IMG/VR virus record: IMGVR_UViG_3300036893_000006
Location: 1 to 44,598 of that record
Source of the DNA: a virus
Reading direction: 5' to 3' (one strand)
Length of the DNA: 44,598 nt
Shown: positions 23,716-30,171 of the stretch, in pieces
Numbering within the stretch: position 1 is the first letter of the stretch
Layout of the letters: every line of letters begins with the position of its first letter
Translations under genes and position numbers: made by a program
The notes under the pieces: generated by a model
Databases searched by the model: none
Seen by the model: the letters and a program-made list of their open reading frames with translations, nothing else
Told to the model about the DNA's origin: nothing

Positions 23716-23787
23716 TGGCACCGAGGGAAGGTGTTTCACCTACATTTGAGCCCGATAGGACTCCGTCCTAACTTAGACGACCTCAGT
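23716..23787 (-). tRNA. tRNA-like gene with noncanonical elbow, anticodon unclear
   Basis: A 72-nt tRNA-like RNA. Acceptor ACTGAGG pairs with CCTCGGT (one T-G), G73 and CCA encoded. The D-arm is GTC-TAAGTTAG-GAC, without GG. The anticodon stem GAGTC/GGCTC encloses only six bases (CTATCG), so the anticodon cannot be assigned safely. The T-loop is TGAAACA instead of TTCRANY. It could be a divergent functional tRNA, a decoy or a pseudogene. Confidence 0.6.
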
Positions 23788-23798
23788 ATTGAAAATGT

Positions 23799-23895
23799 AT
23801 TCGAGGGCAGGAATCGAACCTGCGACCTCCAGCCTAAGGCTGGTGCTCTCTTTGGCGGCTTACGCTATTTTACCATTCCACTGAGCTACCCCGAA
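23799..23895 (-). tRNA. tRNA-like gene with D-loop insertion (possible Leu UAG)
   Basis: A 97-nt tRNA-like RNA. Acceptor TTCGGGG/CCTCGAA; canonical T-arm GCAGG-TTCGATT-CCTGC; D-stem GCTC/GAGC. The D-loop has an insertion of about 20 bases containing AATAGCGTAAGCCG. The anticodon stem CCAGC/GCTGG encloses only CTTAG (5 bases), suggesting anticodon TAG with two bases missing. CCA is not encoded, unlike its neighbours. It looks degenerate, or it needs unusual processing. Confidence 0.5.
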
Positions 23896-23898
23896 AAT

Positions 23899-23974
23899 TG
23901 GAGCTCCCGGTAGGAATTTCACCTACGACCCCCAGGTTAAATACCTGGTGCTCTAATAACTGAGCTACGGAAGC
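23899..23974 (-). tRNA. tRNA-Lys-like(UUU) with A33 and noncanonical elbow
   Basis: A 76-nt tRNA. Acceptor GCTTCCG/CGGGAGC, discriminator T, CCA encoded. The anticodon arm is CCAGG-TATTTAA-CCTGG: anticodon TTT, but position 33 is A instead of the near-universal U. The D-loop AGTTATTA lacks GG and the T-loop is TGAAATT, lacking T55-C56. Stems are perfect. Confidence 0.65.
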
Positions 23975-23985
23975 AAATCTAATCT

Positions 23986-24034
23986 TGGCGCCCGAGTTGG
24001 GTTTAACCCAATTGTCTTACGACAACCCTCGGAC
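23986..24034 (-). tRNA. 49-nt mini tRNA-like gene
   Basis: A 7-bp acceptor GTCCGAG/CTCGGGC (one T-G), G73 and encoded CCA enclose only two hairpins, TTGTC-GTAA-GACAA and TTGGG-TTAAA-CCCAA. There is no D-arm and no 7-base anticodon loop. It sits with normal spacing between two tRNA-like genes. It may be a truncated tRNA, a CCA-tailed tRNA mimic or a remnant. Confidence 0.5.
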
Positions 24035-24036
24035 AT

Positions 24037-24111
24037 TGGTTACCCAGGAAGGTGTTGCACCTTCATTCCCACCTTATTAAAGGGTGGAGTTCTAACTTAA
24101 ACTACCGGGTA
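24037..24111 (-). tRNA. tRNA-like gene with noncanonical elbow and 9-base anticodon loop
   Basis: A 75-nt tRNA-like RNA. Acceptor TACCCGG/CTGGGTA, A73, CCA encoded. The D-arm is GTT-TAAGTTAG-AAC (same loop as the gene at 23716, no GG). The anticodon stem CCACC/GGTGG encloses CTTTAATAA (9 bases), so the anticodon is ambiguous (possibly TTA or TTT). The T-loop is TGCAACA, lacking TTC; the T-arm GAAGG/CCTTC is perfect. Confidence 0.6.
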
Positions 24112-30095: not shown

Positions 30096-30171
30096 TGGCT
30101 GCCAGACTAGGACTCAAACCTAGACTTTCTCGGGTCAGAGCCGAGCGTGTTATCAATTACACCATCTGGCA
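30096..30171 (-). tRNA. tRNA-Gln(CUG)
   Basis: A 76-nt canonical tRNA. Acceptor TGCCAGA/TCTGGCA, G73, CCA encoded. The anticodon arm is CTCGG-CTCTGAC-CCGAG (anticodon CTG) and the T-loop is TTTGAGT. It lies just upstream of the beta-helix gene in the same transcription direction. Confidence 0.88.

Follow-up and report, generated by a model that had tools for sequence, protein, structure and literature searches.

A phage tRNA block in which the elbow contact appears to be swapped, A18-G55 for G18-U55, and not lost

The window, by which we mean the whole stretch of DNA that was analysed, is an IMG/VR virus record of 44.6 kb taken in full, and it seems to be one piece of a large phage genome. 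Every tRNA gene that we found in it is carried by the minus strand, and the block that an earlier note had flagged consists of five elements on that strand, in the 5'→3' order Leu-like gene, mini RNA, Lys-like gene, damaged tRNA and third gene. These elements, together with two further RNA genes of the window, are as follows:

24111-24037 (-): Leu(UAA)-like tRNA (ARAGORN Leu(taa); Rfam tRNA)
24034-23986 (-): mini tRNA-like RNA of 49 nt with two hairpins (fold; counterpart in the related record G025)
23974-23899 (-): Lys-like tRNA with anticodon UUU (ARAGORN Lys(ttt); Rfam tRNA; ortholog at G025:66777-66853)
23895-23796 (-): damaged tRNA with a canonical loop (Rfam 23.2 bits, below gathering; sequence)
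23787-23716 (-): third non-canonical tRNA-like gene, unnamed (acceptor+CCA search)
30096-30171 (-): tRNA-Gln(CUG) with the compensated elbow pair A19-U56 (ARAGORN; loop sequences)
19384-19048 (-): phage-encoded tmRNA with the tag AESLALAA

The Lys-like, Leu-like and third genes have fully paired acceptor stems (7/7 in each) and an encoded CCA; their D-loops lack GG and their T-loops (TGAAATT, TGCAACA and TGAAACA, all of the form U-GNR-A) lack TTC, so that the canonical elbow of G18-U55 and G19-C56 is absent from all three. The earlier note had described these loops and the encoded CCA correctly, and the genes lie on the minus strand; its further statement that acceptor and T stems stay paired is borne out for the acceptor stems but breaks down in the third gene, which has 4/5 T-stem pairs (mismatch U50xU64) together with a 6-nt anticodon loop and G73-CCA. 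Scoring with a covariance model, a check that the same note had proposed, gave 55.7 bits for the Lys-like and 44.1 bits for the Leu-like gene, both above the gathering threshold of the Rfam tRNA family (RF00005; 29 bits); the third gene was called by neither ARAGORN nor Rfam and was recovered by the acceptor+CCA search. The damaged tRNA combines the T-loop TTCGATT with a D-loop insertion of ~25 nt, a 5-nt anticodon loop and a TACA end. The other tRNAs of the window had been said to keep both elbow elements, which does not hold for the tRNA-Gln(CUG): with the D-loop AATTGATA and the T-loop TTTGAGT, it has A19-U56 in place of G19-C56.

Three further tRNA-derived pieces lie on the minus strand outside the block. 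At 22658-22617 is a tRNA 5' half with a D arm and an anticodon arm (loop with TGC), which stands directly 5' of the ATG of the ORF 22612-22331 and whose anticodon stem has its 3' strand (AAGGAG) where a ribosome-binding site is expected. At 21822-21747 is the 3' end of a tRNA-like element (a T arm containing TTCAACT, then CGGATCC-ACCA), in which a perfect 10-bp hairpin, AGCTCCACTT...AAGTGGAGCT, 5' of the T arm replaces the D and anticodon arms. Finally, a 3' tRNA half (GGTCAGTTCGATTCTGTT...CCGCCA) lies at 21314-21271, where we recognised no 5' half.

The contacts G18-psi55 and G19-C56 are taught as near-universal features of the tRNA elbow. There, residue 18 touches residue 55 and is inserted between residues 57 and 58 of the T-loop, and residue 19 forms a pair with residue 56 (PMC4810234); the T-loops of riboswitches have the sequence U-GNR-A (PMC2258182). 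The aligned D-loop of the Lys-like gene (AGTTATTA) places A18 (23957) and U19 (23956) opposite G55 (23920) and A56 (23919), in a gene that ends with U73 and CCA. Positions 18 and 55 thus form a purine swap, positions 19 and 56 a Watson-Crick U19-A56 pair, and the gene has all the residues of an A18-G55 tRNA (A18, U54, G55, A57 and A58). Its acceptor ends (GC...GC-U73-CCA) match those of phage tRNA-Thr genes, and we tentatively prefer a Thr-type body; descent from tRNA-Gly, considered for its U73 and its synteny with Gly genes, was set aside, as tRNA-Thr genes share these acceptor ends.

The Leu-like and third genes resemble each other, and the third is probably a paralogue of the Leu-like gene. 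The D-loops that the earlier note quoted as TAAGTTAG do lack GG; their extent has to be corrected, since a 4-bp D stem leaves the 6-nt loop AAGTTA, closed by U13-G22, in both genes. In the Leu-like gene this loop can be read as A14-A18-G19, opposite G55 and C56, which requires that residue 15 be missing and would allow both A18-G55 and G19-C56; the third gene has the same D-loop and A56, so that 19/56 would be G-A. Both genes are of the A18-G55 type only under this A14-A18-G19 reading, the register of the 6-nt loop being ambiguous, and the T arms of both can alternatively fold as a 7-bp stem with a triloop. The Leu-like gene has no long variable arm, keeps U33, has U37 and carries C31xA39.

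True relatives of the window were obtained with a ribonucleotide reductase query, and one of them, a 215-kb record (G025), is syntenic with the window over ribonucleotide reductase and ~15 neighbouring genes. Its syntenic interval holds canonical Gly, Gly and Asn genes and, at 66777-66853, an ortholog of the Lys-like gene that neither ARAGORN nor Rfam reported; the tmRNA of this phage sits at the syntenic end of its tRNA array. A second record (G024) has a Lys-like sequence identical to that of G025, and a covariance model of the gene matched no third virus among 27 related records; conservation of the block therefore refers throughout to one independent relative, G025. Other queries were less productive. 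The 135-aa neighbour protein and a structural-region protein retrieved no relatives, and BLAST of single block genes against known phages returned just ordinary tRNAs or short chance matches. The 359-aa protein (20481-19402, minus strand), which has no Pfam or PHROG match, has counterparts of 26-49% identity on 26 further viral contigs, and these contigs were dropped as a source of tRNA orthologs after ten records compared gene by gene were found to share little else with the window. Matches to the combined D-loop and T-loop pattern of the block, and to the exact D arm AGCTCAGTTATTAGAGC, look like chance coding sequence.

Between the window and G025, the Lys-like gene keeps 21/21 stem pairs in both phages (5 compensatory double changes, 0 broken; 19/500 shuffles match this conservation) and the same cloverleaf (an acceptor stem of 7 bp, anticodon and T stems of 5 bp each, and CCA), with an identity of 75.3% vs. 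58-68% for seven other tRNA pairs of the same phages. Invariant in both are A18, A33, U34, U36, A37, A38, G55, A56, A57, A58, U73 and CCA; residues 54 (U, or C in G025), 19 (U/G) and 35 (U/C) vary. The D and anticodon arms are fully kept, the anticodon loop is conserved as YAUYUAA, and 19-56 would be G-A in the G025 ortholog. The mini RNA (a 7-bp acceptor, a hairpin with the invariant end UCGUAAGA, a second hairpin and a GCCA 3' end, with neither anticodon nor T-loop) folds with z = -3.8 relative to shuffles and has a counterpart at G025:66860-66909, which aligns to it ungapped with 7 compensatory pairs and 35/36 pair cells kept; its covariance model found nothing beyond G025, and thus no third virus, among 38 related records. 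We do not regard the block as a product of chance, because the Lys-like RNA too folds with z = -3.8 relative to shuffles and the same type of RNA lies in synteny, with compensatory changes, in a related phage.

It could be argued that these genes are decaying pseudogenes, whose loops have drifted after disuse while their stems are still too young to have broken. The 6-nt anticodon loop and T-stem mismatch of the third gene, the insertion in the D-loop of 23895-23796 with its anticodon loop of just 5 nt and its terminal TACA, and the tRNA fragments at 22658-22617 and 21314-21271 all point that way. However, the Lys-like gene is the most conserved of the compared tRNA pairs, it and the mini RNA are kept in G025 with compensatory changes (no broken pair in the former, one broken pair cell in the latter), and the changes in D-loop and T-loop are matched, all of which makes decay improbable as an account of the block. 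Since its ortholog keeps the stems with compensatory changes and none broken, we conclude on comparative grounds that the Lys-like gene is under selection and not decaying. The preference of the earlier note for selection over random decay thus stands for this gene, in which the drift with broken stems that was looked for in related phages is absent from G025; of the Leu-like gene and the third gene, neither has a G025 ortholog.

We then reasoned about the loops themselves, which that note had interpreted as a joint loss of the two elbow elements. They are instead changed as a matched A18/G55 pair, residue 19 is still complementary to residue 56 in two of the genes, and numerous tRNAs of viruses and cells show the same A18/G55 match. 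A pure G18A and U55G exchange is seen in the tRNA-His of an independent phage (L187; D-loop AACAGTA, T-loop TGCAAAT). We scanned viral contigs for a common D arm in which any residue was allowed at 18, together with a G53-U54-G55-N-R-A T arm, then required paired T and acceptor stems, and obtained at least 51 unique intact tRNAs; among those listed, 51/51 are readable as A18, 43 with AG in the expected register and the other 8 as A18 after a D-loop shift. When A18-G19 and C56 were fixed instead and any residue was allowed at 55, the matches listed comprised 76 G55 vs. 8 U55 tRNAs, and some of these 8 have GG elsewhere in the loop. A loop-agnostic cloverleaf finder was also run on a collection of loci, many of which (L301 and later) were chosen because each carried one A18-G55 tRNA, and every tRNA matching the selecting D-arm pattern was excluded. 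Outside that pattern, the AG register is found in 65/70 G55 vs. 40/409 U55 tRNAs from 28 contigs (Fisher p = 5.5e-46); this value, like the counts of both scans, ignores shared ancestry.

In 2.88 Mb of virus loci that were not selected for this feature, GG loss is associated with U55-C56 loss (181:6 vs. 4:6, Fisher p = 2.3e-6), and G55-A56 occurs only in the Lys-like genes of the window and of G025; a third cloverleaf with GA at 55-56 (L209) was rejected, as its appearance is not that of a tRNA. Eight U55 tRNAs of this set have U56 or A56, of which 3 are A19-U56 with GA in the D-loop, 3 are G-U with GG kept and 2 are possible U19-A56. Three loci (L180, L181 and L186, from G031, G032 and G037) contain several C55 tRNAs (T-loops TCC) that keep GG, and also tRNAs with A19-U56 or U19-A56.

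The exchange can extend over whole tRNA arrays: three viral arrays are fully swapped (11/11 in L365, 9/9 in L407 and 6/6 in L325), and three on contigs in Verrucomicrobia bins are nearly so (L470, 7/8; L484, 6/7; L509, 6/7), the first of these contigs having genes with phage-family matches and being a possible phage. Intact A18-G55 tRNAs also turned up in a scan of bacterial genomes, in SAR11, CPR, Chloroflexi, Omnitrophota, Elusimicrobia and others. Among the 33 Rfam matches listed for a SAR11 genome (G061, L604), the sole tRNA-Phe has the D-loop AGGAGTA and the T-loop TGCGAAT, whereas the other tRNAs, as far as read, are nearly all canonical; in a second SAR11 contig an A18-G55 tRNA lies beside murA and hisD. 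Because no other tRNA-Phe was found in G061, and because of this neighbourhood in the second contig, the A18-G55 elbow very probably works in decoding.

These results bear on whether the elbow has truly been lost, in the manner of metazoan mitochondrial or pyrrolysine tRNAs, other contacts then maintaining the L shape. GG and TTC are indeed missing from both loops, as they are from tRNA-Pyl and type II mitochondrial tRNAs (PMC7609411), and both the third gene and the Lys-like ortholog of G025 would have G-A at 19-56. Against this, a large number of tRNAs that are ordinary in other respects combine A18 with G55, the SAR11 tRNA-Phe included, and U19-A56 and G19-C56 can still form in the window genes, so that we consider true loss unlikely. 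We find it quite probable that the elbow contact is swapped, A18-G55 for G18-U55, and not lost; the alternative elbow that the earlier note had suspected would then take a specific form, one that recurs in viral and cellular tRNAs. The block would encode folded, L-shaped RNAs of tRNA type, processed and CCA-bearing, in which the contact between D-loop and T-loop is rewired: U(C)-GNR-A takes the place of T-psi-C-R-A in the T-loop, A18 would slot between residues 57 and 58 so that A18-G55 stands in for G18-psi55, and residue 19 would stay complementary to 56 where possible, as U19-A56 in the Lys-like and G19-C56 in the Leu-like RNA.

What the odd RNAs do is a separate matter. Residue 33 is U in 670/712 cloverleafs and C in 31; the anticodon loop of the Lys-like gene (TATTTAA) has A33 where a canonical decoding tRNA has U33, in the window as in G025. 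The set contains further tRNAs with a purine at this position, among them two phage genes of Lys(UUU) type: L579 (G042:26144-26225, minus strand), whose loop TATTTAA is identical to that of the window gene, and L582 (G039:99326-99400, plus strand), with the loop TGTTTAA and G33. The block genes may be ordinary decoding tRNAs, serving codon compensation, that have an alternative elbow by chance: the SAR11 tRNA-Phe shows an A18-G55 gene where no other tRNA-Phe was found, and the genes of the window use 22.5 AAA and 27.6 UUA per thousand codons. We give this account a minor share of the probability. Both Lys-like genes have purine 33 and differ at residue 35 (anticodon UUU in the window, UCU in G025), which disfavours ordinary decoding; G025 also carries canonical Lys(ttt), Arg(tct) and Leu(taa) genes, which would make the odd RNA superfluous as a decoder there, and the Leu-like gene lacks a long variable arm.

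Alternatively, the acceptor/CCA structures could be processing signals, which would mark for RNase P and RNase Z where a long transcript is to be cut. The best-kept parts are acceptor stems and CCA, and the mini RNA has neither anticodon nor T-loop, but a signal needs neither the fully kept D and anticodon arms of the Lys-like gene nor its conserved YAUYUAA loop, and we hold this to be a rather poor prospect. An escape from nucleases or modification enzymes of the host, which the earlier note had offered as a possible reason, would be consistent with the purine 33 of the Lys-like gene. Since purine 33 is kept, the anticodon differs and decoding would be redundant in G025, we prefer, with low confidence, a main job other than ordinary decoding: the likeliest single role of the Lys-like RNA, itself no better than a tentative proposal, would be, by sequence analogy, that of a cleavage-resistant stand-in or decoy against a tRNA-targeting host defence. 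The explanation as a whole, rewired elbow in folded RNAs together with this low-confidence role, seems to us likely. A broader scheme is doubtful: phages would recode tRNA elbows to A18-G55, sometimes array-wide, keeping the L shape and no longer offering G18/psi55 to host modification enzymes or tRNA-targeting defence, with the A33 Lys-like and mini RNAs as dedicated, non-decoding counter-defence members.

That a matched replacement recurs in natural phage tRNAs, and is seen in a tRNA-Phe of SAR11 as well, suggests an elbow open to rewriting at no cost to the L shape. For structural biologists, A18-G55 tRNAs provide a natural set of substrates without U55, and selection for the swap by psi55/Gm18 enzymes or by tRNA-cutting defences becomes testable. 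It also follows that tRNA finders and Rfam overlook some phage tRNAs that are likely to be real.

Doyon, Zagryadskaya, Chen and Steinberg reportedly found in 2004, in an E. coli selection of suppressor tRNAs, that U55 requires G at residue 18 and G55 requires A there (the 'specific purine trap'). If so, the A18-G55 pair is already known from selection experiments; the literature searched mentions neither 'purine trap' with tRNA nor 'A18-G55', and its natural, recurrent and sometimes array-wide use by phages may be unreported. The tRNAs described here follow the same 18/55 rule and keep U54-A58, but those suppressors came from randomised loops, whereas these are natural phage and cellular genes, sometimes whole arrays. 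The T-loop motif of FMN and AdoCbl riboswitches (PMC2258182) has the same U-GNR-A pentaloop and lies outside any tRNA elbow. Like tRNA-Pyl and type II/III mitochondrial tRNAs (PMC7609411), the window genes have no GG and no TTC; unlike them, they form a cloverleaf of standard size in which the 18/55 exchange is matched. Finally, phage tRNAs altered at anticodon-nuclease sites (PMC10264068; the T5 tRNA-Lys that counters PARIS, PMC12409363) share with the window a Lys(UUU)-type gene and changes in the anticodon loop, whereas the window gene, known here from its sequence, adds purine 33, a Thr-like body with U73 and a changed elbow.
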